From: a virus
Virus record (IMG/VR): IMGVR_UViG_3300033143_001671
Coordinates: 1 to 31,156 of that record
Reading direction: 5' to 3' (one strand)
DNA length: 31,156 bases
A program made the translations under genes and the position numbers. The stretch's first letter is position 1, and each line of letters starts with the position of its first letter. The notes beneath the pieces are model-generated. The model did not search any database and was not told where the DNA came from. It saw nothing but the letters and a program-made list of their open reading frames with translations. Positions 4,261 to 31,156 of this stretch are shown one piece after another.

Positions 4261-4270
4261 ATCCTCTCCC

Positions 4271-8034: not shown

Positions 8035-8043
8035 ACTTTCTCC

Positions 8044-11145: not shown

Positions 11146-11148
11146 AGT

Positions 11149-11472: not shown

Positions 11473-11481
11473 AAAACCCTC

Positions 11482-14159: not shown

Positions 14160-14936
14160 CTACGGTATCTGATCAAGTGTCAGATACGCAATTCCACCCG
14201 ACGGGGCAGCTATAAGTTCAACCTCATGTACTGCCATCCGTACTTCAATCTGCTCCGTCAACCTTGAAGCCGCAGTAACTATAACGAACGTGGTGTTATT
14301 CAACCTCACAGAGTATGAGCCCTCTGTGGTCCCTGTTACAATAATACTAACTACGGGAGCGGGAACACCTTCGATCACACCCCCACTGCTAACTTCAAGC
14401 AACTCAATAACACCGTCGGCATTTCTTCTTACAAATATCACGTTATACTTTGCATAAAACGCCGCGTTGTAACTATCCAAAGCCGTAGTGGGTACACCAT
14501 ACGGATCAGGAAGAGAACTTTGACCGGTCAGAGTTACACGTCTAAGGCCACCCGTGGTAGCCTCATCATAATTGTTAGTAGCAGCACATTGAACTACTAT
14601 CCAATAAGTAGCTCCGGCAACTAATGGAAAAGCTGCGATAACAGCAGAGTACCAACCCACCGTATTTAATATCGTTGTACCCCTTCCGATGGCACTTACA
14701 ATATTTCCGGGTCGATCATTTCCAGAATCATGATCATATAGAGCTATTTCAAAATCTTCAGAGGTATTCGACGCCAATGATTGATACCAGCCAAGTTCCT
14801 TAATTTCGTTTACACCCGCCGGGGCCGTGACCTTTATACCAATGGCGCTGTCACCCAAAGATTCACTTGTTCCAACGGGATCAACTGTAGGCGCAGTTAA
14901 TACAAACCCCGCATTGGTTCCTGTTACTATAGCCAT
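14160..14936 (-). CDS. 258-aa surface protein: jelly-roll-like domain plus duplicated C-terminal domain
   Basis: Residues 1-165 look like a beta-sandwich: ELGWYQSLASNTSEDFEIAL, a YDHDSGNDRPGNIV turn, then VGWYSAVIAAFPLVAGATYW. This is the pattern of binding modules found in phage and secreted proteins and resembles the 500-635 region of the 754-aa protein. Residues 168-258 are a near copy of the whole upstream 95-aa protein (shared GSYSVRLNNTTFVI and GGIAYLTLDQ). ATG at 14936 is preceded by GGGGGACG. The stop lies nine bases before the YkgJ-like gene. A fibre or decoration role is inferred. No catalytic residues seen. Confidence 0.6.
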   Translation of the reverse strand: MAIVTGTNAGFVLTAPTVDPVGTSESLGDSAIGIKVTAPAGVNEIKELGWYQSLASNTSEDFEIALYDHDSGNDRPGNIVSAIGRGTTILNTVGWYSAVIAAFPLVAGATYWIVVQCAATNNYDEATTGGLRRVTLTGQSSLPDPYGVPTTALDSYNAAFYAKYNVIFVRRNADGVIELLEVSSGGVIEGVPAPVVSIIVTGTTEGSYSVRLNNTTFVIVTAASRLTEQIEVRMAVHEVELIAAPSGGIAYLTLDQIP

Positions 14937-15227
14937 CTATTCGTCCCCCGCTTACGGCATCTGATCGAGAGTGAGATATGCAATTCCGCCTGCCGGTACA
15001 GCTACAAGTTCAACCTCGTTCACTGACATTCTAACAAAAATCTGCTTGGTCAACTGAGCCGCCGCCGTGAGTATCACAAACGTGGTATTGTTCAACCGAA
15101 CAGAATACGATCCCGCTGTAGCCCCGGATACAATGATACTTGTTACCGGAGCCGGAATGCCGTCAAGAGGTGTAGCATCACTGTTCGTGGCATTCATCTC
15201 AATGATACCGTCTGCCCTTCTTAAAAT
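14163..15227 (-). repeat. Gene-level duplication of a 90-residue domain
   Basis: Bases 15227-14955 and 14435-14163 encode homologous domains, one as a free protein and one fused behind a beta-sandwich. Both run from R(R)xADGxIE to the C-terminal LDQ(M/I)P. The nucleotide sequences remain visibly alike, including the shared stretch that encodes GGIAYLTLDQ, pointing to a tandem duplication followed by fusion or loss of the first domain. Confidence 0.7.
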
Positions 15228-15239
15228 TGCTAAAGCCAT
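14952..15239 (-). CDS. 95-aa protein, stand-alone copy of the next gene's C-terminal domain
   Basis: The product is almost entirely one beta-rich domain (TSIIVSGATAGSYSVRLNN, VRMSVNEVELVAVPAGGIAY) that reappears at residues 168-258 of the following 258-aa protein with conservative changes throughout. GAGGAG lies six to eight bases before ATG. A TGCTATAAT sequence overlapping the stop of the preceding gene could be an extended -10 promoter. The free domain may trimerise with, or cap, the larger protein, or be a decoration subunit on its own. The Ig-like or bacteroidetes-type beta fold cannot be determined by eye. Confidence 0.65.
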   Translation of the reverse strand: MALAILRRADGIIEMNATNSDATPLDGIPAPVTSIIVSGATAGSYSVRLNNTTFVILTAAAQLTKQIFVRMSVNEVELVAVPAGGIAYLTLDQMP

Positions 15240-16618: not shown

Positions 16619-16633
16619 AAGGTCAACGACCTT
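16619..16633 (-). terminator. Weak terminator-like hairpin overlapping the capsid stop
   Basis: The minus strand reads AAGGTC GTT GACCTT followed by TTGAATTG. The six-base-pair stem overlaps the TAA of the capsid gene and the U-tract is short. With the larger hairpin 23 bases further on, it may lower expression beyond the capsid gene or protect the capsid mRNA 3' end. Confidence 0.35.
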
Positions 16634-18026
16634 AGAACCAACCGAGATTAGCTGGACTGACATTTTTGATGTAAGCGTGCTGCTCTTCTTTCTTCAGCGC
16701 CAAGGCACCAAATAAGAGCATGAGGAAAGGATACACGGCTTCATTTGTGGGATACAAATCGAATTTCATTAATGGCAAAAATTGAAACCACTCTATCGCA
16801 TCGTATATCTCATCCATGGTAAGGATGAAGATGTCAGATGTTCCGGGGAGGCTCGCATTGTCGTCAACGATTGCATCTGCATCGCCGTCCACATAGGTTG
16901 AAAAATATCCCATGAAACGAACATCGCTGCCGTCGGCTGCACCCACTTTGGACCTGTATACCGCATAAGCGGTGATCGAGGCGTCAGGGGTAACCGATAC
17001 GGAAAATACGTTCGTATCGCCGACAGTCGTAATAGTATCAGAATCTTCAGTGGAGGCAAGGCCCTCACCATATCGATTCACTGCGGAAACTTTATAGTGA
17101 TACTCACCAAGGTCCCCTGCTGCAAAGTACGAATCGCCGGTTGCTGTTCTGGTAATGCTGTTGATGGTGACCTGTGCAGGTCGAAGCGCTGTCAGGGTTG
17201 AAGCTACGGGAGCCACACCCTCATTGATGAATACGTCATCAAGCATTTCCAGTTTCCCGAATGGAGTCGGATACTCATTGAATATGGCAGCACCAACATC
17301 CTGACCTGACTGAAACCGCACGCGATCTCTGATCAAGTTCTGAAGATCCTGATGGACCATGGTGGAAGAAAGCAGCAAGCTACCTTTTCCATACTGATCA
17401 CGAATCTGGCGTGAGCCATCATTGATCAGTTTTTCTACCGATGAACCGGAAGCAGTCGCCCCACGTGCATCAAGCACATTGGATGTAGCCTGCTGTTTGA
17501 TTCCTTTCGGCTGTTCGGGAAAGATTGTGTCATTCCCGTTAAACATTGCCTTCTCAACTTCGCGGATTACCCACAAAGCTCCGGCATTCTGTTCAATGGT
17601 CAGGGCATTCTCGATCATGTTCGAGAGAGTCGCCTGCAAAGTCGCCTTTCGGAGAGTCTGCAAGTACTTGGCTGTCTCATACACACGAGCAATGGTCTGG
17701 TCAGCTTCCTGACTCTGGCCACCTTCAGGCACCCATGCTCCATCGCTGGAACCTACTGCCGTACGCTTGTCCCACTGGTGAACAGGGCTGGCTATGGGTT
17801 TCTTTTTCACCCGCTGGAAGAGGCGAGCCTCATCCTGCGACCACAACACGTTTACGAGCGTGTTTTCAAGGGATTCCGGGATCAATGCACGGCCACCAGC
17901 AAACCCGCTGGCGTCTACACCTGATCCGGCTTCTAACGCTTTAGTGAGTTCCTGTAGGACCTCAACGTTACCGAAGTCTCCGTGTCCCACGAAGTTCTGA
18001 GGGAATAGTTCAGGATTTATGTTCAT
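16632..18026 (-). CDS. Major capsid protein with an FN3-like insertion
   Basis: The 464-aa protein has HK97-fold capsid features: an N-terminal arm (1-45), GGRALIPESLENTL, a spine-helix region around 60-160 (LFQRVKKKPIASPVHQW, RKATLQATLSNMIENALTIEQ), and P-domain features such as STMVHQDLQNLIRDRVRF and LEMLDDVFINEG. Residues 278-395 look like an inserted fibronectin type III-like domain (YHYKVSAVNRYGEGLAST, ITAYAVYRSKVGAADGSD). The C-terminus ends in a hydrophobic helix (VYPFLMLLFGALALKK), a normal capsid element. Residues 28-53 match residues 172-197 of the protease, suggesting maturation cleavage near there. AGGAGGG eight bases before ATG is one of the strongest ribosome sites here, matching the need for many copies. 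Gene order with protease and scaffold is classic. Confidence 0.85.
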   Translation of the reverse strand: MNINPELFPQNFVGHGDFGNVEVLQELTKALEAGSGVDASGFAGGRALIPESLENTLVNVLWSQDEARLFQRVKKKPIASPVHQWDKRTAVGSSDGAWVPEGGQSQEADQTIARVYETAKYLQTLRKATLQATLSNMIENALTIEQNAGALWVIREVEKAMFNGNDTIFPEQPKGIKQQATSNVLDARGATASGSSVEKLINDGSRQIRDQYGKGSLLLSSTMVHQDLQNLIRDRVRFQSGQDVGAAIFNEYPTPFGKLEMLDDVFINEGVAPVASTLTALRPAQVTINSITRTATGDSYFAAGDLGEYHYKVSAVNRYGEGLASTEDSDTITTVGDTNVFSVSVTPDASITAYAVYRSKVGAADGSDVRFMGYFSTYVDGDADAIVDDNASLPGTSDIFILTMDEIYDAIEWFQFLPLMKFDLYPTNEAVYPFLMLLFGALALKKEEQHAYIKNVSPANLGWF

Positions 18027-18707
18027 TTAATTACCCTCCTTCATGAGCGCTTCAACCTTCTGGTCTACCCGGTCATTCCGGTTTCCCAGTTGGTTCTTGT
18101 TGATGCGTCCCTCGATCATACCGGCCTCAGTGAGGTCGATCTTCCCGGCGCGGACCCATTCTCGTGATTTCTGAAGCACGGTCATATTGTCGTACTCCAC
18201 TTTCCCGCCTTCAAATCGGCTCTTATTCAGAACCTTGACGGACTGGCTTCGAACCGGAGTGCCCCCGATCTGACGGATCATATCGGCTGTACTTTTTTCG
18301 AGTTTGGCAGTCATCAGGAGAACTTCTCCCTGACTCTTCACCATTTTCTCTACCCGGTTGAACTTTGCCTGCATGGACTTGCTTAGCTGCATGATGGTTT
18401 CATCCATCGCTTTAGTAAGCTGGCGCAGGAAAGGTTCGACATCAATTGCCGCAGCCGCGTTCGGATCTTCGGCAAGGATTTCAGAGATGGACTTTTCGTA
18501 ATCCATATCCTCTTCTTCCTCTTCCTCAGACTCGTCTTCGTCTTCGGCATCTTTTGACTTGCCCTTGGGCTCGTCGTCATCTTTGGCCTTCCGAAGTGAT
18601 TCTTCCGAATCGGATTCCAACGACTTCTGGAGGTCGGTCAAGGCGTCGTTGAAATCCTTTTCGATGAGTTCATCATCCAGAAGAACTTCTTGTATTGCTT
18701 CACTCAT
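18027..18707 (-). CDS. Scaffold-like capsid assembly protein
   Basis: The 226-aa protein lies between the prohead protease and the capsid gene. It has an acidic low-complexity region (residues 35-70, with DEDESEEEEEEDMDYEKS), then a long helical coiled-coil-like stretch (FLRQLTKAMDETIMQLSKSM, VEKMVKSQGEVLLMTAKLEK) and a basic C-terminal helix region (NDRVDQKVEALMKEGN). An acidic body with a basic helical C-terminus is typical of scaffolds, which line the growing shell and are removed by the protease. Several L-x-K-S/A motifs (DLQKS, SLRKA, QLTKA, QLSKS, VLQKS) could be cut sites. GGAGGG precedes ATG. The stop TAA is immediately followed by the capsid ATG. Confidence 0.75.
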   Translation of the reverse strand: MSEAIQEVLLDDELIEKDFNDALTDLQKSLESDSEESLRKAKDDDEPKGKSKDAEDEDESEEEEEEDMDYEKSISEILAEDPNAAAAIDVEPFLRQLTKAMDETIMQLSKSMQAKFNRVEKMVKSQGEVLLMTAKLEKSTADMIRQIGGTPVRSQSVKVLNKSRFEGGKVEYDNMTVLQKSREWVRAGKIDLTEAGMIEGRINKNQLGNRNDRVDQKVEALMKEGN

Positions 18708-18733: not shown

Positions 18734-19531
18734 TTACCTTCCCGCCCCAACAACGTTAGGGATTTTCCGGGATAGGTAGTTGATAATTTTAGCTGCTGAA
18801 TTGCCTTCATATCCTCTATCGTATACGAAGTTAAGCATGTCATTATAGCTACCAATCTTATTATCTCTGACTGCTTTTAAAAGGTCACCAAACATTCCCC
18901 GTAGTTCTTCCGGGGGAACCATATTGTCGACCGTTGATCCCTGAAGACTCTCAGGACTGAGGGCACGACCGCCTGTAAATACAGACGCATCTACTCCACC
19001 ACCCGCCATGAGTGCTTTAGCGAAAGCGGCGAACGGTACCATCTGAACACCACCAAGAGTCCCATCATTGACGGGCCTATGTGTGATCGCGGTTTCGTCC
19101 CATATAACTTGCTTGATTGCATTCTCGCTCTTTTGGAGAATACCACCACCGATTGAAGCGCCGAGGCGCTTTGCCCCACTCTGGATATTCTTCCAAACCT
19201 TCTGTGCGATGTCGTTGGCCTGATACAGATAACCTTTTACAAGGGTCCTGTGATCTTTAGTGAACTTCACTTCCAACGGTTCGCCGATGATGAATCCCGG
19301 ATCATGTGTCGCTTTATGCTTGTGATCCCACGATAGAACACCGTGCGAGAGGAAGTAGTCGGCGGCTTTCTGTAAGGCCGCCATGTCTACGGTCTCTCCG
19401 TCCTGATCTTTCATCTCGTTAGAGGCTTGGAGATAGACTATCCACTGCCCATTTTCTTCGGCGCCCTTGATAAGGACATCGCTGAATGGGCTGTAGAATG
19501 GGTTGCTAAGCTGTGCAATTCCCTGTCTCAT
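18734..19531 (-). CDS. Prohead protease (XkdF/S78-type)
   Basis: The 265-aa protein matches phage prohead proteases of the S78-like, XkdF type that cleave scaffold and capsid N-termini. Seen in order: an N-terminal strand region ending in DQDGETVDMAALQKAADYFL; the catalytic histidine motif SWDHKH (H70); VKGYLYQAND; the catalytic serine in GASIGGG (S126); and WDETAITHRPVN (144-155), all hallmarks of the fold. The third catalytic residue cannot be assigned by eye. Residues 172-197 carry a stretch matching the capsid N-terminal region. A C-terminal helical tail (200-265) follows and may act as scaffold or targeting domain. ATG has GGGAG upstream. A strong hairpin with U-run lies only about 18 bases before the start, which is unusual for the head of an operon. 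Confidence 0.85.
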   Translation of the reverse strand: MRQGIAQLSNPFYSPFSDVLIKGAEENGQWIVYLQASNEMKDQDGETVDMAALQKAADYFLSHGVLSWDHKHKATHDPGFIIGEPLEVKFTKDHRTLVKGYLYQANDIAQKVWKNIQSGAKRLGASIGGGILQKSENAIKQVIWDETAITHRPVNDGTLGGVQMVPFAAFAKALMAGGGVDASVFTGGRALSPESLQGSTVDNMVPPEELRGMFGDLLKAVRDNKIGSYNDMLNFVYDRGYEGNSAAKIINYLSRKIPNVVGAGR

Positions 19532-20470: not shown

Positions 20471-21634
20471 CTAATTCCACGGGGTCGGTTTGATCAATTT
20501 TTCAGGATCGTCTATAGGCTTCTGAAGCCTTGCGCCCTCCCGCATAGCCGCCTCCATAGACGCTCTGAACTTCGCATCGATGTCCTCAAACCCCTGAATG
20601 TACTTCACCCACGTACATCGACAGTGCGGGTGCTGAGTCCCAGCAGCTACCCACCAGTCAGCACGTCGGCGGCCATAGTTGTCTTTCCCCGGCCAGATCG
20701 CAGTGTACATTGTACCATCTATCATTACCTGATCGCCACTGTCAGGGGGTTCCGGCAATAGGACCACGACCCTATCATTCACTTGACCCACACAAAACGG
20801 GCACGCCTCCGATGAGGATATGCCCTTCATGAATATCGTTTCATCCGGTCGCGCCCGGTCCATCTCTGTAATGAGTTGACCGTTGTTCATGGAGTTTCCG
20901 ATCTCGGTCTCAGCTATACGCCGCCAGTCCCGATTCATCTCTCCGAACTTATCGAATAGATTCTCCCGGAGTTCCCGGTGACTCTGCCGATTCTTGATAC
21001 CAGTTTGTAGGGTGTCATGGATCTTTTTGTACTGGTTCTGCTTCAGGTCCACAATCAACTCACCAGCGTGTTGCTGAGCAAAAGCTACGGTGTTCTGCCA
21101 TAGCGGACCCTTCAGTTTGTTCATAGTGTCATCTACTGCATCCCGGACACTCAGATATCCGGCAGACAGAGAATCGTCAATGCTCATACCTTTGAGCAGC
21201 TTCCCCAGCGCAAGAGCGTGAGATGCGATCCGTTCCTCTTCTGGTGCATAGATATAATTGAATACCTTCAGGATGTCCCGCTTGATGATCTTCCACTGGC
21301 CTTTTGTCAACGGCTTCCCACTCTTTGGATCTATGAATATTCGGTTGTTCAACAGGAAGGGATCAGTCGAGGCTTTCGCCATGCCGATCCACTTCGAGGA
21401 TATGACATTGTACATCTTGATCAGGTGCCGCTCGATACGGTCCTTGCTGAATGCTTCCAGTTCCCGGACAGATCGAAACGGGGAGACCTCTTTCTGCTGT
21501 CTCTCAGAGTCGTATCCCAGCGCCTTGGTCAGCGCTGTTATTGCTTTGTCAAACTTCAATTCGGGATGGTGATGAAGGTTCTTGAGTTCAAGTACTATAT
21601 GTGATTCACGAGTTTGAGAGCAAAGTTCACACAC
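20471..21634 (-). CDS. MuF / SPP1 gp7-like minor head protein
   Basis: The C-terminal half has the signature of Mu gpF / SPP1 gp7 minor capsid proteins, which ride inside the head near the portal and help DNA packaging or ejection: WRRIAETEIGNSMNNGQL, then EACPFCVGQVNDR, and finally HPHCRCTW. The two C-containing motifs together probably bind zinc. The N-terminal 200 residues are helical. I prefer the GTG at 21634, which has AGGGAGGGG upstream and overlaps the end of the 69-aa gene; a TTG at 21655 is the other option. With GTG the protein is 387 aa and opens with a CxxC (CELCSQ) followed by HHH, an unusual extra metal-site candidate. The family call is firm; the start is not. Confidence 0.8.
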   Translation of the reverse strand: MCELCSQTRESHIVLELKNLHHHPELKFDKAITALTKALGYDSERQQKEVSPFRSVRELEAFSKDRIERHLIKMYNVISSKWIGMAKASTDPFLLNNRIFIDPKSGKPLTKGQWKIIKRDILKVFNYIYAPEEERIASHALALGKLLKGMSIDDSLSAGYLSVRDAVDDTMNKLKGPLWQNTVAFAQQHAGELIVDLKQNQYKKIHDTLQTGIKNRQSHRELRENLFDKFGEMNRDWRRIAETEIGNSMNNGQLITEMDRARPDETIFMKGISSSEACPFCVGQVNDRVVVLLPEPPDSGDQVMIDGTMYTAIWPGKDNYGRRRADWWVAAGTQHPHCRCTWVKYIQGFEDIDAKFRASMEAAMREGARLQKPIDDPEKLIKPTPWN

Positions 21635-21836
21635 GTCCGTGGCCCCTCCCTGCAAGGAAGGAACAATAGTTCAACCAGATCGAGGTATCCGTGGTCAGGT
21701 AGTCTTTTATCATTCTGCTACCCTCATCCATACTCCGATTCAGTGCGGCTTTAATATTTTTAGGGGGAGCTTTCCGGCCCATGTACTTACACCACTTTGC
21801 GAACCTGTCACCGGTTCTTAATGCTTCTGATCTCAT
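21627..21836 (-). CDS. 69-aa protein overlapping the MuF start
   Basis: ATG overlaps the stop of the 300-aa gene as ATGA, and the end overlaps the MuF start, so the three are likely coupled. The protein is basic, with a helix around KAALNRSMDEGSRMIKDYL and a C-terminal segment with one Cys and a GRGHGRV tail. No membrane helix or family signature. Genuine by spacing, unknown in function. It might be an accessory to the minor head protein, which it directly precedes. Confidence 0.55.
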   Translation of the reverse strand: MRSEALRTGDRFAKWCKYMGRKAPPKNIKAALNRSMDEGSRMIKDYLTTDTSIWLNYCSFLAGRGHGRV

Positions 21837-22735
21837 GCTCCATACCTCTCCATATAGTTCCGATACCCTGACGAATGCTCCATCCTGAAGATGAAGTTAT
21901 TCCGGGTACGCTTACTCGCGATCTGGTTCAGTAGGAATGCCTTGGCGAACGAATATGGAATCTTGATCTCCGCCTTCGCTGTCGCCCGTGTACGTTCCTT
22001 CTTTTTAACAATCTGCTTCACTCGGATCGTGAGGCTATCACCTTTATATTTCAGGTCCATGTCCTCAGCTTTCTTCGGGAGAATCCATTTCTTCTTCCCA
22101 TTCGGTAACCCGGCTGTCAGCTTCGCAACCTTGGTTTTTATCATAGCACGAATATGAGAAGTAGACAGGTCCCCGGTCACTGACCAGCCGCCCATCCTCT
22201 TCTTTTCAGTCTTCACTCGGGACGCTTTCATAACCGGCAGCGCCGTGTCGTGCTTGCCTTCCTCATAGGTCCTGTATTCCTTGCCTTTCTTCGAGGTCTT
22301 TGTAATCGTCAGCTTGACCTTGGGCTTGGTAGAAAATCGTTCCTTCAATTGAATCAGTGACCGACCGATCAGGTCCACAACTGCTTTCTTGTCACCAACA
22401 GGTGCGGGGGTTGATTTTACCCGGTCGACCACATCCTTATAGATTTGATGGGCCGTATCCGCTGGACCGTTCTTGATCGCTTCTACCAGACCCTCGAATC
22501 CTTTGATGTTCCGGGCCTGCATAACAGCGTCAACCTCGCTGCCAAGGTTGGTTGTCATTGCATAGTTGAAATATTCCCGGCCACGTCGCCACGAGTCAGC
22601 GAGTACCTGCTTTTCACCTTTCTGACCGCCCTCTACGACAACCCATTTCTTGCCGACCTTCTTACGGGTTGTCCCGTCGGCCCATGTGTGGGTTTCGCCC
22701 TGTGCGGCTGCCTTAGCTTTCAGTATCAGGTTCAT
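21833..22735 (-). CDS. Basic 300-aa head-module protein of unknown function
   Basis: I start at the ATG at 22735 (MNLILKAKAAAQGETHTW), which has AGGA before it and overlaps the previous gene by 23 bases; a start 22 codons upstream would overlap far more and lacks a site. It opens with a short hydrophobic leader ending in an LxKA motif, then a THTWADGTTRKKVGKKWVVV linker like those in the neighbouring cargo proteins. The body is strongly basic with mixed helix (EGLVEAIKNGPADTAHQI) and strands (KVKLTITKTSKKGKEYRTYE). The C-terminus ends in SYRN-like RNYMERYGA. A DNA-contacting internal head protein is plausible from charge, but this is inference. Confidence 0.6.
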   Translation of the reverse strand: MNLILKAKAAAQGETHTWADGTTRKKVGKKWVVVEGGQKGEKQVLADSWRRGREYFNYAMTTNLGSEVDAVMQARNIKGFEGLVEAIKNGPADTAHQIYKDVVDRVKSTPAPVGDKKAVVDLIGRSLIQLKERFSTKPKVKLTITKTSKKGKEYRTYEEGKHDTALPVMKASRVKTEKKRMGGWSVTGDLSTSHIRAMIKTKVAKLTAGLPNGKKKWILPKKAEDMDLKYKGDSLTIRVKQIVKKKERTRATAKAEIKIPYSFAKAFLLNQIASKRTRNNFIFRMEHSSGYRNYMERYGA

Positions 22736-24491
22736 CTTTCTTCCTATGAAGCGGTTCGTCGAAGATGGATTCCATTCTCGCGATCCGGTCGTCGAATGCA
22801 TTCTGCATAGCCTTCAGCAAAGCCATCTCAGATACGGTGGCATATACCATATTATAAACGCCCTGCGTCTCAACCTTGGTGATCGTGATAGAGGGGGCCC
22901 TCACTATAAACTCATGCTCATGTGCATGTTCAGATATGCCACTGGCCTCAGCCGCGCTATAGTTGACTTCGTTCACATCCTCAATCAGTTCGTCAATATC
23001 AATACCTTTGATCTTCTTGCTCTCACTGGTAAAGTCGTTGGCCAGAACAATGACAGTTCCTCCGGCATTCGCGAATCCTTTTGCTGTTGACTCCTGAGTA
23101 GAAAATGAAGCCATGCCTACAGGAATCACATCCCCTACCTTCGCTACCTTCCAGTCATCATTACCTGTTCCCCTGTACAGTTCATTATGAGTAGCGGTCA
23201 TCATTTTAGCCAAGACCACATCCCCTGTATTGTTGTAAGCTACTGACCCCGGATCGAGCCCGTCCCGTCGTTTGGTATCCGCTTCCTTTACAATAGATCG
23301 AGTTTCCCTAACATTATTTCCACGGACCCATTCACCAATAGTATTCAGATCGTCAGCGTCCCATTCAAGATCACTACGATCAGTCATGGTAAAATCTTCA
23401 AGGTCACCTCCGGCCTCTTCCTCAGCCTCATCCAATACTTTTTGTACCCAGTCCTCAGTACCAGATATGCTCATACCATTATTGATCATCATGGAAAGCG
23501 CTTCACCTTCCTCAACTTCTATATAATCATTCGAATCTGAAAAGCTCCATACATCACTATCGGACAAAATCGGATTTCCTTGATGCTCCCACCAATCCTT
23601 GATTTGATCTATATCCACCTCGCCATACTCATCAGTAGCATTATTATTGATATACGCAAAAGCCTCAGATGTAGCTACAGCATCATCCCAATCAAGATCC
23701 CCTTCCATAGCAAGGCCCATTTCAAACCATTGACTATCATTGGAGTTATCGATAAAACCTTGAATATCCTCATTCGTTTTCAGGTGTTCACGAATCCATG
23801 TCCGAGCATCCAATCGGAGACCTTCGTTGCCGTAGTCCTCATCCTCATCTTCCCGGTCCATAACCGTGTTAATGATATGAATGGTTGCTCGTTTGATATC
23901 GTCTTCAGTAATCGGTTTTGGTGCTTCTTTCATATCGAAGTCAGCCGTATCCTCAAACCAACTCTCGGCCTTGTCCTGAATGAGTCCCGCCTTGCCGATT
24001 ATATCATTCATCTTGTCTTCGCCATGCGTATCCAATGTATTTATCGCACGCTCTTTGAGATCCGCCGCAGATTCCCCGGACCCGCCGGTTACTACTTTCA
24101 GACCGGTGGATACCTCAGTCACCACCACGTCAGGGCCTACGCTGTTGTTTCTCTCAATCTCCCGGTGAACCACAAACGACTTACCGAACTTATCGAATCT
24201 CTCCACAATAGCTTTGTCAGGTATTCGTATCGCCTCTTTAACAACATTAGTGGAACCCTCGTCCGGCTGCTTGTCCCGGAGAACGTACACACGGTTATCG
24301 CCCTTCGGTCCTTTCGGTACCGGAGCCGGGAGCATAACAAGGTCTTGATGGTTGATGATCGTGGGATTCTTTGGGGCCTGATCAGGGCGCACATAGAATG
24401 TCTGGATAAAAGGCTTTCCCTTCCTTGAGACCATTCGTTTTACTGGCACGAGCCCTTTCCGACTCATGGTTGCCTTGATCAGTAGTCGCAT
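22713..24491 (-). CDS. 592-aa probable head cargo with C-terminal ADP-ribosyltransferase-like domain
   Basis: Residues 1-36 hold a short hydrophobic leader (MRLLIKATMSRKGLVPVKRM) followed by KGKPFIQTFYVRP, a linker-like pattern. Residues 150-420 are strongly acidic (for example VMDREDEDEDYGNEG), with low similarity to anything I know. Residues 430-570 look like an R-S-ExE class ADP-ribosyltransferase: ELYRGTG (R440), ASFSTQESTAKGFA (S-x-S at 462-464) and HEHEFIV (E525-H-E527), in correct order and spacing. Members transfer ADP-ribose from NAD to a protein or nucleic acid; several phages eject such enzymes (T4 Alt, in a different architecture). It is flanked by polyvalent-type and head genes. 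The enzyme call rests on three motifs, so activity and target are unproven. GGGGG upstream supports ATG at 24491. Confidence 0.7.
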   Translation of the reverse strand: MRLLIKATMSRKGLVPVKRMVSRKGKPFIQTFYVRPDQAPKNPTIINHQDLVMLPAPVPKGPKGDNRVYVLRDKQPDEGSTNVVKEAIRIPDKAIVERFDKFGKSFVVHREIERNNSVGPDVVVTEVSTGLKVVTGGSGESAADLKERAINTLDTHGEDKMNDIIGKAGLIQDKAESWFEDTADFDMKEAPKPITEDDIKRATIHIINTVMDREDEDEDYGNEGLRLDARTWIREHLKTNEDIQGFIDNSNDSQWFEMGLAMEGDLDWDDAVATSEAFAYINNNATDEYGEVDIDQIKDWWEHQGNPILSDSDVWSFSDSNDYIEVEEGEALSMMINNGMSISGTEDWVQKVLDEAEEEAGGDLEDFTMTDRSDLEWDADDLNTIGEWVRGNNVRETRSIVKEADTKRRDGLDPGSVAYNNTGDVVLAKMMTATHNELYRGTGNDDWKVAKVGDVIPVGMASFSTQESTAKGFANAGGTVIVLANDFTSESKKIKGIDIDELIEDVNEVNYSAAEASGISEHAHEHEFIVRAPSITITKVETQGVYNMVYATVSEMALLKAMQNAFDDRIARMESIFDEPLHRKKDEPDTES

Positions 24492-24494
24492 CTG

Positions 24495-24923
24495 TTACCC
24501 CCTGAAGTATGTTATTATGACTATGAGGACCATACACACAGCCATAAACCCAGACAGAACTTCAACCCGGTGAGTCTTGAGCCATCTCTTTTCAGATTGT
24601 ATCTTCATCTCCCGCTCATCCATCTTCCGATGGACAATGTTCTCAATCTGGTTCTGGTCCACTCCTCCACGCTGATACATTTCTTTAACTGTCGTGGCTA
24701 TCTCAGTCACCCGTTCATTGGTATTGCTGATCTTTGTATCGTATCCGTCAAATAGTTTCTCACGGACCTCTCCCACCTTTTCAGAAATCTCTTTCTGGTG
24801 GTTGTTTTGATTATGTTCCATTCTGTCCAACCGTTTATCCATAGCCGTCAATAACACCTCATGCTGTGATATTAAATTAGCATTGTATAGGCACTGTTTA
24901 CTTGCGCCGGGCGTATCACTCAT
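24495..24923 (-). CDS. 142-aa coiled-coil protein with C-terminal membrane helix
   Basis: Residues 20-115 are heptad-like and charged (TAMDKRLDRMEHNQNNHQKE, KISNTNERVTEIATTVKEM), and residues about 120-140 form one hydrophobic helix (VEVLSGFMAVCMVLIVIITY) ending in FRG. The layout (cytoplasmic coiled coil plus a tail anchor) resembles XhlA-type holin-associated proteins but is not diagnostic. It shares a base with the preceding stop (TGATG). In the cargo block it could be a membrane-inserting ejection factor, or a lysis-related protein in an odd position. No signal peptide. Confidence 0.65.
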   Translation of the reverse strand: MSDTPGASKQCLYNANLISQHEVLLTAMDKRLDRMEHNQNNHQKEISEKVGEVREKLFDGYDTKISNTNERVTEIATTVKEMYQRGGVDQNQIENIVHRKMDEREMKIQSEKRWLKTHRVEVLSGFMAVCMVLIVIITYFRG

Positions 24924-25261
24924 CAGTACTCACTCCTATCAAACTCTCCCGGAATTACGTTCAACTTCGCTGCGGAGATGCTTTCCTCTGCCATGATGCG
25001 GGCCTTCTGTAACGAGTCCCGCTCCCCCAACTTGTTTACATAGCGATCTTTCAGATCGTGGTACACTTCATCGTACGGTCCTTCCTTTTTCTGATCGAGC
25101 CGTTTTCGTAAAGCATCCATATCAGAGTTCAGTCGGTCGATCCCTTTATTGGCCGCTTCGATAACCTGTTCCTGTTCGCGAACAATGATAGCAGCTTTCG
25201 TATCCAGTTTTACCTTGACCGCATCGAGTTGGTCTGCGCTCTTCTCCGCCTGATTACGCAC
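24923..25261 (-). CDS. 112-aa coiled-coil protein
   Basis: The gene begins at GTG eight bases after GGAGG, inside the end of the 1657-aa gene, so it is translationally coupled. The product is nearly all helix with heptads (IIVREQEQVIEAANKGIDRL, LKDRYVNKLGERDSLQKARI) and no cysteine, membrane or enzyme signature. It ends VIPGEFDRSEY. It is probably a partner of the following membrane-anchored coiled-coil protein or of the large cargo protein. Function unknown. Confidence 0.6.
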   Translation of the reverse strand: MRNQAEKSADQLDAVKVKLDTKAAIIVREQEQVIEAANKGIDRLNSDMDALRKRLDQKKEGPYDEVYHDLKDRYVNKLGERDSLQKARIMAEESISAAKLNVIPGEFDRSEY

Positions 25262-28200
25262 TTCGGGCCTCCTCTTCGTATTTGTTCAGCATACCGATAA
25301 ATCCCTTATCATCCAATGCCGTTACCGACCGAGGATTGCCGATGATATTCATTTCTTTCCGCTTCGTGGCCATCAAGTCTTCAGACCGCATATCCATAGG
25401 GTTCACACCGGACAGAACATAGGTCGAAGTATCCCTATCCTGACCCTTCCTGAATATCCGGGCGTTCCGCTGATCAAATGCGGCTGCGCTGTCCGGTATA
25501 TCCAAGTGAAAAGTGACCGATCCCCCAGCCTGTAAGTTATGGCCGGATTCGAGAGTCTTAGTCCCTACAATGAACCTGAGCGGATTGCCCGGATCATTAA
25601 ATGCGGCCTTAGTCTTTGCCATCTCTCCGGGACCGGTCTCACCGTGAATCATCGCAACGGACCCTACACCAAACTCTTTCTCAAGTCTCTTCTGAGCCGT
25701 TCGCATAGCCTTCAGTACGGGTTTACCCGGCTGGGATACGTGAACAACTGCCTTCTCTCCGGGATGGTTATTCTTCATCGTGTCGATAATCGTATCGACC
25801 TTAGCATTACTCTCGGTATAGCCGTCAGATAGAATCGAATAGTTTCTGGAATCTCTACGAGCCGAAGCTCCGGGAAGTTTCTGTTCCCGCTCATCCCTAT
25901 ATTGCCTCTCACTTGCCGCATACGCTTTCCGCTGTGGAGCAGACATTGGAATACGGAGTGTATTGACCTTGTTCTCAACCGGTAGTTGATTCTTCTGCGT
26001 GTAAACCCAGTCTCCGGTCTCTTTCCTGAACGCATCGTTGGCAGCGTCCTGAAATATGCCGGTACCTTGGTTGAGTCCCTTATATCGCTTCTCAAAATCA
26101 GCCATTGAACCCATACCATGTTCAGGATCAATGAAGTTGATCTTCCTGTAGAGTTCCTTCTTTGACGTTTTGATGTTCGTACCTGACATAGCCATCTTCA
26201 GAGGAACGTCTGCGAGTTGATCTAAAGCCTTATATCTCCCAGCCGCACCAGTACCGGCAGTCATTTCATGAATCTCATCTAAAACAACCATATCGTATCC
26301 GGCATCTTTCAGGATCGAAGCGTCTTCCCTGAGTGCATCCTGTGAAACGATATGAATACCGTCCTGTTCAAGGTGTCGGCGGTGACGTTCAGTCTTCGAA
26401 GTGTTGGAGGTCGACTGCCTGACGAGCTTCTGCATATCCTTATCAAGGAAAGTCTCGCGTTGTTTGTGGAAGTCGCCACGAGTACCTGACGGAGTTACTA
26501 CCAGAATCTTCTTAGCTCCCTTATTAGCCATAGCATCCATGATCCCCGCATAGGCAATTCCTGTCTTTCCAATACCCGCTTCAAAGTCTAACAGAACCCT
26601 ACCCTTCTCATTGAAGAAACGGAGTCCGGCTTCCTGTGCTGCATCGAACTTGATACTGTCCTTAATACCCGGTGGTTTATATCCGGTATTTGATTCATGA
26701 GCCTTGATAGCTGCAAGATTATCCTTCTCTGCCGACTTGTCAGCAGCACCCTGAAAGAAGTTGTTCAGAGACTCTTTCGGAATCTCCATGACCAGCCGCT
26801 TAGCGCGCCCTTTCTTAACGGTTCGTATCGAATAGGTACCTTTCTTCAAACCGGCATTCTTAGCCCTGTCACGAGCCCGTGCAAGGTCCTTACCCATATC
26901 TACCTGTACAACATCAGCCGGTGGATCTTCCAGCGCGTTGATCATATGCGCGGCTGCTCTCAGAGAACCTACAGCCGTACCCAGTGCGCGCTGTGCTGCG
27001 GTGATCTGCTTCAGAGCATGACCATTAGCTGAGGCCATGGACAGGATTGCTTCGGCATCGTCTTTGTCCCGCGCCAGTCCCCTAATATCATCAGCGTTGG
27101 CCAGTCGTTTCTTGGTTTCCTTCAATGCACGGTCAACGACTTTCTCACGTTCTGTGGCTACATACTCTTCAAGGGCCTTACGCACGACTTCGCCCTTACC
27201 ATCCAATTGGATCTTTGCGGTGACCGCTCGGGCCACAGCTTCAATCCCCAGTTCCTTTACAGTGTCAGTCGTGAAAGTAGCACCGGAACCGTACACATCT
27301 CCGATCAATCCGTTCAATGCGGAGATTGCACCTTGGTCAACATGCCCGTTGATCGCCTGACTCTGAGCATTGAGGATGTCATACATCTGAATATTCTTTG
27401 CTGTCTCGGCCTGATCCTTGACCTGTCTCTGGATCTCATCCATTTCACTGGTCGTGGCTGCGGCAAACACCGCTCCAACCTTCAGGTCGGAAGGAATGTC
27501 AGCACTCTCCGCACCGATGGCCTTAATCGCTTTCCTGAACTGCTTTCTGGCTGCCAGTACTTCAAGAGCCTTGTCCTTATCGAGTAAGGTCTTCAGTTCC
27601 GGTGCTGCGTTAGGGTCCTCGGGCATATAGTCTTTCATCAGGGTGTTGAGCGCTTCCCGCTCCACATTCTTGACTTGCTTCTGGACCGCTTTCTTGAGTT
27701 CCTTCTCAGACTGCTTATCAACTTCGTTTTCAATAGCCTTCTCATCCATGGTCTTAAACGCCTTTCGCGCTTCAACCATCTTCCGGGCCTTGTCCTCAAG
27801 TTCTTTCATCTGCTTAGCACTAATATTATCTCTGATCTCATCAGGGGTAACACCCAGAATATCTGTAACCACCTCAGTATAGGCGGCTCGGGCTGTCTTT
27901 CGTGCTGCGTGCTGAACTTTACGGGTTGCTGCGGCCTCGCTGATCTCTTCCTTGGTCAGCGCCTTCGTTTCTTCTTTTTTCTTAGCCTCGATCCGTTTCC
28001 GCTTCACAGTATAGTCTTCACGGCTCATGATATTGTCAATCTTCAGGTGATTCAGTTTCCCACCGGCCCCGCCGACCACGACATAGCCGCCGTCACTGGT
28101 TCCCTGCAACAGGACCCTTGCACCCCGGATCGTAACCCAGCGCATTCCACGAGCTTTCACTTCATCGGCTGAGTAATATTTCTTACCCTCGCCGTTTGCT

Positions 28201-30227
28201 TTCATAAGATCACCCAGCCAGAAGAACTTGATCAGCTTATGATTGCGATGGAGAAACCATTGTCCGCTATCGCTCTTGAGCAAGTCCCCTTCTCCGAATG
28301 ATTTGTTCACTCCGAACCTGTCTACCAGATTCGTAATTCTCTGTTCCATAATTCGCCTCAGTTTCGGGTCTTCAATACCCGCAAGGATTACGCCTTTCTT
28401 AGACAGTACGTTTGTCAGTTGTTCACGGATATCATTATCACTCACGAGGCCGAACACCGAGGAAGCCGAACGGGAGGGATCTCGAAGACTCTCGACTTCG
28501 GTAACATCCCCACCAAATGAATCGCCTTTCGGAGCGCCCTGTGCCCTGTAGCGTAATGATCCACCATTGTCGATTCTCCATGCTCTCGCACCGTCCCATA
28601 TAACATTATCATTATCCATACCCAGAACATCCCAGTTACTCACCAACGCGTCGGCCAGAAACCCATCCCGAAGCTGCTTCATAGCCTCAGACTGTTCATC
28701 TCCATAGAGGTCGGAAAGTGGTACGCCCTCAATATAGTCGGCAACCTGTACGAGCTTCCCCTCACTGTCGTGTGAAAGTTGAACATCAGGGACCGCCACA
28801 CCGAGCGTTTTGTAGATTCGGTTCGCCATGTATTCATCTTTGAGATGACCTTCACCGGTTGAACGTTTCAGGACCTTCTCTTCACCATTGGCCAGCCTGA
28901 CATGGGCTGCGCCTCCGGTAGTCCCTCCAAGATTCTTGAGGGTGGCATAATGTCCCATACCTCTGGGCCGCTTCCCACCATTATCAGGATATGTATAATG
29001 CCATCGACCGTTCTTGAAGTACTTATTGATATACTTTGACTTCTGTAGCTTCATCGATTCTTTAATCTCATCAGGTCCGAACAGGTGCATAGCGTATTTC
29101 AAGGAAAGCTCTTCGAATGCGGTTGTCATGCCTTCTGACTTACTCTTCATAACCTTCGCCGGGTTCAATTTCATATAGTTGACATTCGGCCTTCCATGCG
29201 CTTTATAGTCCCAAGCCTTCGGCGCGTACTGGTCATCCCATGCCACGGTCTCAGTCACCTCGAATCCATATTTCGAATATATCTTAGGTAACACGTCACC
29301 CAGACAATCCAATGACTTCGCTCCATTCTTTATAGCCGTCTTCATGATTGAAGCGCCTTCATGGGCACCCGGTTCAGAGAAAACAGATATAAGGTCTCCG
29401 TCACCGGTAACCGCATAGCCGCTCTTACCTGTCTCGGAGATATACGCCTTGGCACGCTTGCCCTCATATTCTTTCGCAGTGTAGGAAGTAACAAACGCAT
29501 CGAACTCTTTTGGAGTCTTTGCGTCTCGAACAGGTACAAACTCAGCTAAGGGAACATTGGAATAAGTTGTGACCAGTTTGATAGCGTCCTTCTTATCCAC
29601 GAAGGTCGCCAGTTCTTTTTTAGCTGGCTTACGCCCTTTCTTGTCACCGGGGTATTCATAGTACCAGCGTCCATCCTTGCCCCGCCATCGTTTGGTATAC
29701 TTTGCCTTCTCCAAGTGACCGATACTGTCATTATCCGCAGTCAGAATGTATGTTTTAGACTTCCGTAATTTCTTAGGCGGCTTCAGAGTCAACCCTTTCC
29801 GGTCCTTCAACATCTGTTTGAAGGTTGCCATATCTACCTGATCACAGGACCCGTAATAATCTGATCGGTCATACTGTCTCTGGTATGCTGCCTTGGCTTC
29901 TACCTGACTGTTGAACCCGAGCATACACTTGTCTTCATCATAGTTACCGGTATATGGATCATTTTGGTGTACGATATATACCTTATCGGAGAACTTGCTG
30001 GGTCCCATATATACATCCACATGATCACCGTCGACACCGAGAGTAAGACGCACATAGCCATAAGCAATATGCATAAAAGTACGCCACATATTCCCATGAT
30101 CGTCCTCCCCCTGCCTGTAAGTTCCTCGTTCATTCTCAATTGAGATGGGTAATCCCTGAAATGTGCATTTGCCTTGGAGCTTGCGACTGCGCCAGTCTAC
30201 TGCATTAGTAATAATGCCTCGTTTCAT
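25254..30227 (-). CDS. 1657-aa polyvalent protein: InPase-like, GNAT-like, kinase-like and SNF2 helicase domains
   Basis: Domains by residue: 15-150, an inorganic-pyrophosphatase-like domain of the polyvalent type (YGYVRLTLGVDGDHVDVYMG, with D66, D68, D71; then DEDKCMLGFN); 225-355, GNAT-like (AVTGDGDLISVFSEPG, SLDCLGDVLPKIYSKYGF, GRPNVNYMKL); 425-640, kinase-like (K454 in KVLKRS, NWDVLGMDNDNVIW with D533 and N541, RIDNGG with D553); 740-1170, long charged helical region; 1195-1640, SF2/SNF2 helicase with GIGKT (1218-1222), DEIH (1317-1320), SGT (1348-1350) and QRNARIFRKGQ (1586-1596). Polyvalent proteins in phages and conjugative elements are proposed to enter the cell with the DNA and disarm host defences. 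Aromatic linkers follow [LI]xK[AS] motifs at 172-175, 394-397, 649-652 and 674-677, between domains. ATG overlaps the previous stop as ATGA with GGAGGG upstream. The helicase is certain; the GNAT and kinase calls are moderate. Confidence 0.85.
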   Translation of the reverse strand: MKRGIITNAVDWRSRKLQGKCTFQGLPISIENERGTYRQGEDDHGNMWRTFMHIAYGYVRLTLGVDGDHVDVYMGPSKFSDKVYIVHQNDPYTGNYDEDKCMLGFNSQVEAKAAYQRQYDRSDYYGSCDQVDMATFKQMLKDRKGLTLKPPKKLRKSKTYILTADNDSIGHLEKAKYTKRWRGKDGRWYYEYPGDKKGRKPAKKELATFVDKKDAIKLVTTYSNVPLAEFVPVRDAKTPKEFDAFVTSYTAKEYEGKRAKAYISETGKSGYAVTGDGDLISVFSEPGAHEGASIMKTAIKNGAKSLDCLGDVLPKIYSKYGFEVTETVAWDDQYAPKAWDYKAHGRPNVNYMKLNPAKVMKSKSEGMTTAFEELSLKYAMHLFGPDEIKESMKLQKSKYINKYFKNGRWHYTYPDNGGKRPRGMGHYATLKNLGGTTGGAAHVRLANGEEKVLKRSTGEGHLKDEYMANRIYKTLGVAVPDVQLSHDSEGKLVQVADYIEGVPLSDLYGDEQSEAMKQLRDGFLADALVSNWDVLGMDNDNVIWDGARAWRIDNGGSLRYRAQGAPKGDSFGGDVTEVESLRDPSRSASSVFGLVSDNDIREQLTNVLSKKGVILAGIEDPKLRRIMEQRITNLVDRFGVNKSFGEGDLLKSDSGQWFLHRNHKLIKFFWLGDLMKANGEGKKYYSADEVKARGMRWVTIRGARVLLQGTSDGGYVVVGGAGGKLNHLKIDNIMSREDYTVKRKRIEAKKKEETKALTKEEISEAAATRKVQHAARKTARAAYTEVVTDILGVTPDEIRDNISAKQMKELEDKARKMVEARKAFKTMDEKAIENEVDKQSEKELKKAVQKQVKNVEREALNTLMKDYMPEDPNAAPELKTLLDKDKALEVLAARKQFRKAIKAIGAESADIPSDLKVGAVFAAATTSEMDEIQRQVKDQAETAKNIQMYDILNAQSQAINGHVDQGAISALNGLIGDVYGSGATFTTDTVKELGIEAVARAVTAKIQLDGKGEVVRKALEEYVATEREKVVDRALKETKKRLANADDIRGLARDKDDAEAILSMASANGHALKQITAAQRALGTAVGSLRAAAHMINALEDPPADVVQVDMGKDLARARDRAKNAGLKKGTYSIRTVKKGRAKRLVMEIPKESLNNFFQGAADKSAEKDNLAAIKAHESNTGYKPPGIKDSIKFDAAQEAGLRFFNEKGRVLLDFEAGIGKTGIAYAGIMDAMANKGAKKILVVTPSGTRGDFHKQRETFLDKDMQKLVRQSTSNTSKTERHRRHLEQDGIHIVSQDALREDASILKDAGYDMVVLDEIHEMTAGTGAAGRYKALDQLADVPLKMAMSGTNIKTSKKELYRKINFIDPEHGMGSMADFEKRYKGLNQGTGIFQDAANDAFRKETGDWVYTQKNQLPVENKVNTLRIPMSAPQRKAYAASERQYRDEREQKLPGASARRDSRNYSILSDGYTESNAKVDTIIDTMKNNHPGEKAVVHVSQPGKPVLKAMRTAQKRLEKEFGVGSVAMIHGETGPGEMAKTKAAFNDPGNPLRFIVGTKTLESGHNLQAGGSVTFHLDIPDSAAAFDQRNARIFRKGQDRDTSTYVLSGVNPMDMRSEDLMATKRKEMNIIGNPRSVTALDDKGFIGMLNKYEEEARSA

Positions 30228-30718
30228 TCGACACCCTCCAACATCTTATTCGAATAGGTGGTCTTCCTCTTAGCGCTCCAATCTTTCCAGACTCCATTCA
30301 GACCGTAACCATATTTAAAATCCCCCGGAGCTAACGGGTTACTGGGTAGGCTGTTCTTGACATTGAACGTCACCTCCCCAAAGTCGGCATACATCACCAC
30401 GTACTTACCCGGATACTTCCTGCTCATAGCCGCACCGTACTTCTTAGCATCGGCGACCTTCCAGCCTTTCTTATTAGCGTCAATCCTCACGGATACATTG
30501 CCGGTGGTCCCACTACTCGAAGGTTTACCGGAGATTTCTAAAGGCATAGGCTTCTTATGCGCGGATTCACGCCGCTTCGTTGGTGGGGGAGACTTAGGTC
30601 GGGGCGCGCTCTTTTTCTTCTTAGCCCCGTAGTAGTACTTATAGTTCCCCGGCGTGCCAGTCCGTTTCGTGTAATTAGACTTCAACAACTCGATGGGATC
30701 AACAATTATAATTCTCAT
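30224..30718 (-). CDS. 164-aa basic protein with cargo-type N-terminus
   Basis: The N-terminus MRIIIVDPIELLKS is a short hydrophobic stretch ending in an LxKS motif, immediately followed by NYTKRTGTPGNYKYYYG, the same kind of aromatic linker found twice inside the following 1657-aa protein. Residues 32-65 are Lys/Pro/Ser-rich and likely disordered; residues 68-164 (VSVRIDANKKGWKVADAKKY, KYVVMYADFGEVTFNVKN) form a small alpha/beta domain that I do not recognise. AAAGGTGAGG before ATG is a good site and the stop overlaps the next start. The shared leader-plus-linker suggests it is another packaged head protein. Confidence 0.65.
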   Translation of the reverse strand: MRIIIVDPIELLKSNYTKRTGTPGNYKYYYGAKKKKSAPRPKSPPPTKRRESAHKKPMPLEISGKPSSSGTTGNVSVRIDANKKGWKVADAKKYGAAMSRKYPGKYVVMYADFGEVTFNVKNSLPSNPLAPGDFKYGYGLNGVWKDWSAKRKTTYSNKMLEGVE

Positions 30719-30742: not shown

Positions 30743-31156
30743 TTAGCTCCGTGGCTTTTTTACATTCTTAACCGGTGTGTGTTTTGTGGTTGACTCAGGT
30801 TTGCTCGACCCTATCTCTTCGGGTTTCACAATGATGGTCCTGCGACCAAAATTGTCATGAGCGCGGCTGCCTGAACCTGACGCACTGGCATTGTAGTTTT
30901 TGTGAGGTGCTTTCGCGCCCTTCACTCGACCCTTGCCATCAACACGTTTGGTGTCGGCGTACTTGCCCTCATCTTCGGGCTTGCTTGAGCCGATCATCCT
31001 TTCCGCTGCCATCTTCGCGAACTTCATTCGTTCGGCATGACCTTCGTAGGGAATCTTGCTCTTAGTCTTACCACTCACATTTGAGAGGCTTGCCGGATGG
31101 TCTGCTTTCTCCAAAGGTTCAATCTCTCCGGGAACCAGAATCAGTGCAAATCTTGT
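30743..31156 (-). CDS. C-terminal end of an unidentified head-module protein (5' end beyond window)
   Basis: The frame is open to the window edge (138 codons), so the start is outside; the TTG at 31114 is not a likely start. The visible part begins TRFALILVPGEIEPLEKADH and is otherwise basic, Gly/Ser/Lys-rich and disordered, with GSSKPE twice (near 55 and 117) and a TIIVKPEEIG strand near the end. By position before the cargo and MuF genes it could be the tail of a portal protein, but no portal feature is visible here, so I leave it unnamed. Confidence 0.6.
   Translation of the reverse strand, partial: TRFALILVPGEIEPLEKADHPASLSNVSGKTKSKIPYEGHAERMKFAKMAAERMIGSSKPEDEGKYADTKRVDGKGRVKGAKAPHKNYNASASGSGSRAHDNFGRRTIIVKPEEIGSSKPESTTKHTPVKNVKKPRS

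Follow-up and report, generated by a model that had tools for sequence, protein, structure and literature searches.

The window analysed here, 31,156 bases that make up positions 1 to 31,156 of IMG/VR virus record IMGVR_UViG_3300033143_001671, belongs to a phage. It encodes a giant polyvalent protein of 1657 amino acids that is probably an early-infection effector of a tailed phage: a constant carrier with exchangeable enzyme cassettes, which would be loaded in the prohead and ejected with the DNA. The gene lies on the minus strand at positions 25254-30227, starts with ATG and contains no internal stop codon. Along the chain we distinguished an InPase domain, a tag, a GNAT domain, a second tag, a HipA-like kinase, a GGAGGKLN module, a helical stretch and an SNF2 motor. 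A sequence-only reading of the window had proposed a chain with InPase-like, GNAT-like, kinase-like and SNF2-type helicase domains at exactly these coordinates, and all four domains were recovered; the strand is an addition of the present analysis. The protein is 100% identical in two longer IMG/VR contigs, L002 (53 kb) and L003 (81 kb), and contig L004 encodes a protein of 1783 amino acids with 83% identity to it. These copies rule out chance or an assembly artefact as the source of the open reading frame. Since the chain joins unrelated enzyme domains and is encoded among late head genes, it is a phage polyvalent protein, as had been suggested from its sequence.

The two ends of the chain are recognizable by sequence. 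The InPase domain (residues 18-141; 29805-30176, this and all following features of the giant gene being on the minus strand) matches Pfam PF18823 with an E-value of 1.3e-39 and 135.6 bits, the curated cut-off being 26.8. Its residues E31, D66, D71, D97 and D99 are kept in 5/5 relatives, and some of these acidic residues presumably coordinate metal. Of the InPase, kinase and SNF2 residues checked across the relatives, the only exceptions are E33 and D68 of the InPase, in L226 or L213. At the other end, the GGAGGKLN module (residues 690-760; 27948-28160) matches the N-terminal part of phrog_62 (E 3.7e-7), and the residues of its motif are kept in 5/5 relatives. This module opens the constant C-terminal end, which continues with a long stretch that is helical as judged by sequence (residues 761-1190; 26658-27947), homologous in L218, L223 and L205, and closes with the SNF2-type motor (residues 1196-1657; 25257-26642). 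In the motor, Pfam identified SNF2-rel_dom at residues 1212-1438 (E 1.4e-12) and Helicase_C at residues 1476-1595 (E 8.3e-7). The motifs GxGKT, DExH, SGT and QxxxRxxR are intact, with their residues kept in 4/4 relatives. No DNA methylase was found among the Pfam matches of the giant protein down to E 1.

The two enzyme cassettes between these ends were assigned mainly by fold. Cassette 1, the GNAT domain (approximately residues 217-355; 29163-29579), has no match in the Pfam scans of the giant protein and matches phrog_2563 with an E-value of 1.6e-13. Its fold was predicted on the 69% identical orthologue from L004 together with 23 other rows; in this model 12 of the 14 ten-residue GNAT blocks exceed a pLDDT of 90, the whole 357-residue model averaging 65.5. 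It matches PA4794 (Z 12.7 over 129 residues), RimI (Z 12.5) and many other GNATs, and the best E-value by Foldseek alone is 3.2e-3. Cassette 2, the kinase (approximately residues 425-645; 28293-28955), gave no Pfam or PHROG match and no significant match to PDB sequences. Its AlphaFold2 model (62 sequences; pLDDT 89.7, pTM 0.85) best matches CtkA of Helicobacter pylori (Z 16.1, rmsd 3.1 Å, 204 residues), followed by CotH (Z 13.8), PI4KII-alpha (Z 12.8) and HipA (Z 11.8). Foldseek ranks RioK1 (4.1e-6) and CtkA (4.4e-6) together, and a profile of the kinase family placed CtkA first among PDB sequences at an E-value of only 0.018. We take CtkA to be HipA-like, and what had been described as a kinase-like domain can be refined to a HipA/CtkA-like kinase. 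The alignment of up to 81 rows shows conserved columns at G435 (79/80), K454 (79/81), E465 (78/81), D533 (80/81), N541 (80/81) and D553 (81/81), which presumably represent the glycine loop, the lysine, the glutamate, the catalytic aspartate, the asparagine and the metal-binding aspartate, respectively. K454, E465, D533, N541 and D553 are also kept in 3/3 close relatives. Among the kinase columns that are more than 70% conserved in these rows, there is no conserved histidine before the catalytic aspartate. CtkA and HipA are bacterial proteins, HipA being a toxin-antitoxin partner, whereas the domain with the same predicted fold is here a cassette in a phage chain.

Comparison with relatives revealed that both ends of the chain, i.e. 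the InPase and the unit of GGAGGKLN module, helical stretch and SNF2 part, are kept and that the middle varies. A scan for VGGAGGKLNxL returned 22 stretches, two of which represent the window population. Homologues of both the helical stretch (E 3.5e-166 to 8.2e-105) and the SNF2 part (E 2.5e-213 to 1.2e-155) occur in L218, L223 and L205. L213 shares the InPase and the GGAGGKLN module before the contig ends. The InPase and the module are also present, more distantly related, in L208/L214/L221, L216 and L211, the last with weak SNF2 matches, and L207/L217, L220 and L215 carry the module and weak SNF2 matches without an InPase in that frame. In all, the InPase (PF18823) was present in 9/10 GGAGGKLN records searched. 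Between the InPase and the GGAGGKLN module lie about 15 residues in L205 and about 15-25 in L213, as against about 530 in the window; the gap widens to about 650 in L004 and to about 1420 in L225, a fuller copy of L223. Correspondingly, the middle holds nothing in L205, GNAT and kinase in the window, an extra domain plus GNAT and kinase in L004, and DUF5661 (E 1.0e-15), Zeta_toxin (E 1.2e-22) and a HipA-like kinase in L225; the giant frame of L218 holds a kinase and a NUDIX domain (E 1.3e-13). In the seven records searched by Pfam, Zeta_toxin occurred only in the giant frame of L223 (1/7) and NUDIX only in that of L218 (1/7). DUF5661 was inside the giant frame in L223 and was a free gene in the window population (two records), L004 and L213; it was not found in the L218 and L205 records. 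Being free in three populations and fused in a fourth, DUF5661 is encoded beside the giant gene in some phages and as a cassette within it in another, and a neighbouring gene thus appears to have become part of the giant chain in a related phage.

The extra domain of L004 (10448-10975) comprises about 125 residues between the InPase and GNAT, is bordered by tags of the two types described below and carries the motif IEDGNHRYF. By eye, IEDGNHRY resembles, we presume, ParB/Srx motifs; ParB_N was found in 0/7 records, and the domain, where the structure model is poor, matches no Pfam model. A JAB-like stretch seen by eye in L218 was rejected, with Prok-JAB in 0/7 records. It had been suggested that the exact domain order may be undescribed. 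The order InPase, GNAT, kinase and SNF2 was seen only in this population, whereas L004 has the same order with its extra domain inserted after the InPase. InPase and SNF2 as such are also combined in single frames of L205, L223 and L004. Scans with peptides from the whole protein, the kinase pair and the L004 extra domain returned only the two identical records plus L004, or L004 alone, and one contig-genome scan returned five loci that match only in the GNAT part. Such architecture scans need exact short peptides, and their reach is limited to relatives that share them.

Short basic-aromatic segments of about 20-30 residues, which we call tags, sit at the domain joints of the giant protein. 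Type A follows the pattern KAKYxKRwxGKDGKWxYxY and type B the pattern KAKRmpiGtvsxGrkKVAEGKWVxV. The window protein contains two type-A tags, KAKYTKRWRGKDGRWYYEY and KSKYINKYFKNGRWHYTYP: tag 1 (residues 172-196; 29640-29714) lies between InPase and GNAT, and tag 2 (residues 394-419; 28971-29048) between GNAT and kinase. Type B is exemplified by KAKRMPIGTVSRGRRKVSEGKWV in L004. Each tag model was tested against phages that had not contributed to its training set, reversed sequences serving as decoys. Selection of the training tags by eye is a weakness of this design. A type-A model trained only on seven tags of L213, L218 and L223 recovered just the two internal tags from 124 proteins of the window population (E 1.5e-12 for tag 1 and 3.7e-10 for tag 2), the next match being a decoy at 0.92. 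From the same 124 proteins, a type-B model trained on four tags of L218 and L223 recovered only the N-terminus of a type IB topoisomerase (E 3.6e-4; decoy at 0.63), which is encoded at 7612-8502 of L002 between the portal and giant genes. In the reverse direction, a type-A model trained on the window and L004 found nine segments in eight of 96 proteins of L224, L225, L226 and L213 (E 1.5e-11 to 6.3e-4; decoy at 0.21). Seven of these segments lie in six free genes located between the portal and giant genes or just downstream, and two in giant proteins; no type-A segment was found by this model in L226, whose giant protein has no cassettes. The type-B model trained on the window and L004 gave two strong segments in giant proteins (E 1.3e-14 and 6.8e-10) and a third below significance (0.29). 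In this reciprocal training and testing, matches above the reversed decoys were confined to the portal-to-giant cluster. The portals of the relatives tested are 45 to 67% identical to that of L002.

Three copies of a tag in L224 agree at 18/18 residues, although 8, 11 and 13 of their 54 bases are different. When 8, 11 or 13 bases were changed at random, not one of 200,000 trials for each number gave silent changes only. Because the copies differ only at silent bases, it is the peptide that has been conserved by selection, rather than the DNA being conserved or recently copied, and this makes DNA recombination hot spots less likely as the reason for the tags. In leave-one-out runs with a mixed tag set, tag 2 was recovered at E 3.4e-5 (its L004 orthologue at 0.17), tag 1 at 0.019, tag 1 of L004 at 0.19 and the topoisomerase tag at 1.7-1.8; the type-B tag of L004 scored 4.2, worse than decoys. 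These scores indicate that the tag groups are close, and not that they are proven to be one family. When the type-B variants of L218 and L223 were used as single queries, the 322-aa gene at 21833-22801 was not found and the topoisomerase appeared only at E-values of at least 6.

A further tag kind, with the pattern GTPGNYxYxY, was found in 41 IMG/VR stretches, two of them from the window population; it either heads free genes or lies within giant proteins, one of which (1894 aa) has it twice. Of these 41 rows, 33 open reading frames were scanned, after removal of the window population, a collagen-like match, four exact duplicates, L194 as a cut near-duplicate and, for the protein with two tags, its second row. 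ART-PolyVal was detected in three of them and LPD1 in two, and the single cases include ddrB-ParB, Zeta toxin, NUDIX, DUF5661, PI3/4 kinase, GNAT and SNF2. An enrichment of polyvalent domains in the tagged frames was not clean, as their neighbours also carry LPD1, LPD3, NUDIX and InPase among the matches listed. These neighbours numbered 193 in 38 loci. Among the 135 scanned, and in the 25 of 103 families listed, the head maturation protease phrog_1028 occurred in eight and the major head protein phrog_752 in seven, together with several portal families. A model built from 35 GTPGNY tags of other contigs finds a 164-aa gene adjoining the giant gene and a 196-aa gene of L004; it misses both internal tags of the giant protein even after six rounds, and was therefore rejected as a universal tag finder. 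The string GTPGNY was not found in the open-licence full-text literature.

The giant gene is embedded among head genes, as the sequence-only reading had noted. Its reading frame shares 4 bases with the upstream neighbour (30224-30718) and 8 bases with the downstream one (24923-25261), and these overlaps couple the giant gene tightly to both. The upstream neighbour, on the minus strand like all genes described in this paragraph for which a strand was recorded, is the 164-aa gene, with a GTPGNY-type tag at residues 14-35. Further upstream lies the C-terminal part of the DUF5661 gene (30743-31156; Pfam E 1.8e-11), which is cut by the window end and is complete at 8607-9485 of L002. The portal gene lies beyond the window, at 5644-7257 of L002 (Pfam E 3.8e-17), and the order in that contig is portal, type IB topoisomerase (E 7.3e-20), DUF5661 gene, 164-aa gene and giant gene. 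The topoisomerase gene is also present in L004 and L223, the L223 match containing one in-frame TGA, and was not found in the L218, L205 and L213 records searched. Downstream, the coupled gene (24923-25261) encodes 112 amino acids and has relatives adjoining the giant gene in L004 (84%) and L224 (47%). It is followed by a 142-aa gene with a hydrophobic C-terminal stretch (24495-24923) and a 592-aa gene (22713-24491), the N-terminus of which weakly resembles the linker after the InPase in L218 (E 0.0067, the next match being at 5.2). Head genes lie further downstream: a weakly supported MuF-like head morphogenesis protein (20471-21655; phrog_115 E 2.2e-4, Pfam Phage_Mu_F E 0.056), the head maturation protease (18734-19531; phrog_1028 E 1.1e-21), a likewise weak scaffold-like protein (18027-18707; phrog_15087 E 2.3e-5) and the major head protein (16632-18026; phrog_752 E 2.7e-58). 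A tail sheath match is located at 362-1294.

The enzyme families of the giant protein recur in virion proteins of other phages. A DNA-pattern scan for DxGGxxxxYRA(K/Q)G returned at least 120 stretches, of which 80 (L018-L097, one being the window population) were analysed; an iterated model found the kinase in an open reading frame of 67 of these and not in 13. Pfam was run on 41 of the 67 frames, a size-limited random choice, and detected ADPrib_exo_Tox in 18, NUDIX in nine, Phage_Mu_F in seven, Phage_portal_3 in three, and Phage_portal_2, anti-CBASS Acb1 and HipA_C in one each. The PHROG matches listed (25 of 63) comprise head morphogenesis, minor head, portal and Alt-like ADP-ribosyltransferase families, and 19 records of named phages match the kinase, four of them annotated as ADP-ribosyltransferase. 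The other 66 kinase frames, as far as compared, gave no match to the giant protein's InPase, helical stretch or SNF2 part. Judging from these matches, the HipA-like kinase is a module of head genes that is widespread and occurs in fusions with ADP-ribosyltransferases, portals and MuF proteins. The GNAT survey yielded 25 frames, and eight of the 14 scanned join the GNAT to a portal, MuF or minor capsid protein. Portal_Mu was found in five, Phage_portal (38.7 bits, just below the cut-off of 39.1), MuF, a VG15 family and LPD38 in one each, and nothing in five; the VG15-family fusion is gp4 of Microbacterium phage Caron, annotated as a minor capsid protein. The InPase matches 462 phage records. 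Many of the 60 listed are annotated as minor head proteins in PB1-like phages, a match in Sinorhizobium phage PBC5 is annotated 'DarB-like antirestriction', and another covers residues 637-755 of the Pa193 portal, at its C-terminal end (E 6.3e-21).

Polyvalent proteins as a class are known. Those described by Iyer et al. 2017 (PMC5512222) likewise join unrelated enzymes in one chain among late head genes, and their reported building blocks include InPase, GNAT, kinase and SWI2/SNF2. For the kinase loci of Verrucomicrobium spinosum, the same paper suggested cassette-like recombination. In contrast, the layout of constant ends and variable middle and the shared tags are absent from the sections of that paper compared here. 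The kinases it describes, as far as those sections go, have a conserved histidine and no C-terminal subdomain, whereas the window kinase is HipA/CtkA-like without a conserved histidine, and 'hipa' has no occurrence in the text. Besides PMC5512222, a search of the open-licence full-text literature with the cassette family names gave nothing clearly on the subject by title. New here are the fixed InPase and SNF2 ends, the exchangeable cassettes, the HipA-like kinase family and the tags shared with free neighbours. The same InPase family ends a virion protein in the portal-InPase fusions of BcepF1 (PMC5512222, in the part consulted), PB1-like phages and Pa193; there it forms the tail of a portal, whereas here it heads a separate effector chain. 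DarB of phage P1, a virion head protein, is also a giant with an SNF2-type module and a proposed action on incoming DNA, and it couples SNF2 to a DNA methylase (PMC5512222, same sections), which the window protein does not among its Pfam matches. In P1, according to the parts of PMC9024508 and PMC12810830 consulted, Dar proteins enter the particle and leave it together with the DNA; attaching the first 30 N-terminal residues of DarB (250 kDa) to TetR-mCherry is enough to direct this reporter into the capsid. The Dar proteins are the closest tested precedent, and the tags might, in the same way, serve the carrier and free effectors as common loading signals.

Based on these observations, we infer that the giant protein is packaged and injected. 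The carrier would consist of an N-terminal InPase and a C-terminal unit of GGAGGKLN module, helical stretch and SNF2 translocase, with enzyme cassettes, here GNAT and HipA-like kinase, inserted between these constant ends and bordered by basic-aromatic tags. The same kinds of tag would mark adjoining free genes, here the type IB topoisomerase and, less surely, the 164-aa gene. The giant protein and its tagged neighbours would be made late, together with the head proteins, loaded into the prohead and then ejected with the DNA. The SNF2 part would bind the incoming DNA and move along it, as proposed for P1 DarB, and the cassettes would at once modify host proteins or nucleotides as their targets, possibly in an anti-defence role. 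As a tentative extension, the tags may be portable capsid-loading signals, such that any enzyme gaining one, whether as a free gene or as a cassette, would become injected cargo.

Several points weigh against this proposal. The family of giant proteins is small. The CoA-binding loop of the GNAT, which canonically reads Q/RxxGxG/A, is GAHEGA here; some homologues come nearer to the canonical form. The SNF2 part matches 70 named-phage records, mostly helicases of Staphylococcus (42) and Gordonia (15) phages, and these matches are no evidence for a virion role of this part; Morganella phage Mecenats66, with a helicase directly after a minor head gene, is the only such case among the SNF2-matching phages inspected. 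The giant gene of L218 is split into two overlapping frames on one strand (4763-7162 and 64-4881), with the InPase in a separate frame; either the gene is truly divided or the sequence contains an error. The end of the Pa193 portal that holds the InPase has no density in the map (PMC11042391, as far as consulted), so that the location of this InPase rests on the fusion and not on structure. With regard to the tags, the type-A model recovered the 164-aa gene only with its L004 orthologue in the training set (E 5.6e-6) and not without it. The link between GTPGNY and KWxYxY is weak: when left out of training, the 196-aa copy scored 1.2 and the 164-aa copy was not listed.

Other explanations have to be weighed against these data. 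A late-made protein might act inside the producing cell, in superinfection exclusion or DNA handling during packaging, and never be injected, the kinase then protecting the infected cell. Late-gene context alone is indeed no proof of packaging, and the 'Gratiaviridae' gut phages (PMC8008677, in the part consulted), which we liken to the present case by description only, carry a HipA-like kinase between the portal and major capsid protein (MCP) genes for which early action was argued to be unlikely and immunity possible. However, other phages join members of the same kinase and GNAT families to proteins that should be present in the particle (portal, MuF and minor capsid); these fusions favour a cargo role, without proving it, and we regard action in the producing cell as unlikely. 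It also appears rather improbable that the protein is a DNA-handling machine, in which SNF2 and type IB topoisomerase work on packaged or incoming DNA, the InPase removes pyrophosphate, and kinase and GNAT are passive or decayed. In favour of this explanation, it is SNF2 and InPase that the compared relatives retain, and a tagged topoisomerase IB lies between the portal and giant genes in the window population, L004 and L223. A decayed kinase is nevertheless difficult to reconcile with active-site residues that are kept in all three close relatives and in at least 78 of up to 81 rows.

For the tags themselves, a role other than loading deserves more weight than these two explanations. They might be plain beta-hairpin linkers, or cut sites at which the head protease separates the enzymes, and we give this a sizeable minority chance. 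Their position at the domain joints of a giant protein suits both possibilities. Cleavage would also be in line with the presence of phrog_1028 proteases, of the same family as the window protease, near GTPGNY frames (8/135 neighbours scanned), and with the proposal, in the sections consulted of PMC5512222, that polyvalent proteins are processed, in that case by zincin-like peptidases. On the other hand, a pure linker is not needed at the N-terminus of free neighbouring genes, where tags also occur, and no cut motif was identified.

A few further observations concern other genes. The head protease (residues 172-197) and the major head protein (residues 29-54) have a 26-residue segment in common, KALxAGxGVDASxFxGGRALxPESL, which is 77% identical between them (E 1.4e-9) and may be a common processing or assembly site. 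The adjacent genes 14160-14936 and 14952-15239, numbered 17075-17851 and 17867-18154 in L009, have a common 90-residue C-terminal module (68% identical). Three large proteins are encoded at 5785-8034 (749 aa), 8044-11145 (1033 aa) and 11482-13746 (754 aa), the first two without a clear PHROG match and the third without a clear Pfam match. In L008, two long neighbouring proteins (6198-8780 and 8804-12997) have their first 160 residues in common (45% identical, E 1.2e-30).

Injected phage proteins are hard to identify without virion proteomics. The analysis ties a HipA-like kinase family, mostly without a Pfam match, to virion structural proteins and ADP-ribosyltransferases, and its fusions lead beyond the description 'late gene in head module': that the kinase is injected becomes a prediction open to testing. 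If the tags do load cargo, a tag search would list the injected effectors of a phage from sequence alone, including those of uncultured phages, and a delivery tag for phage particles would follow.

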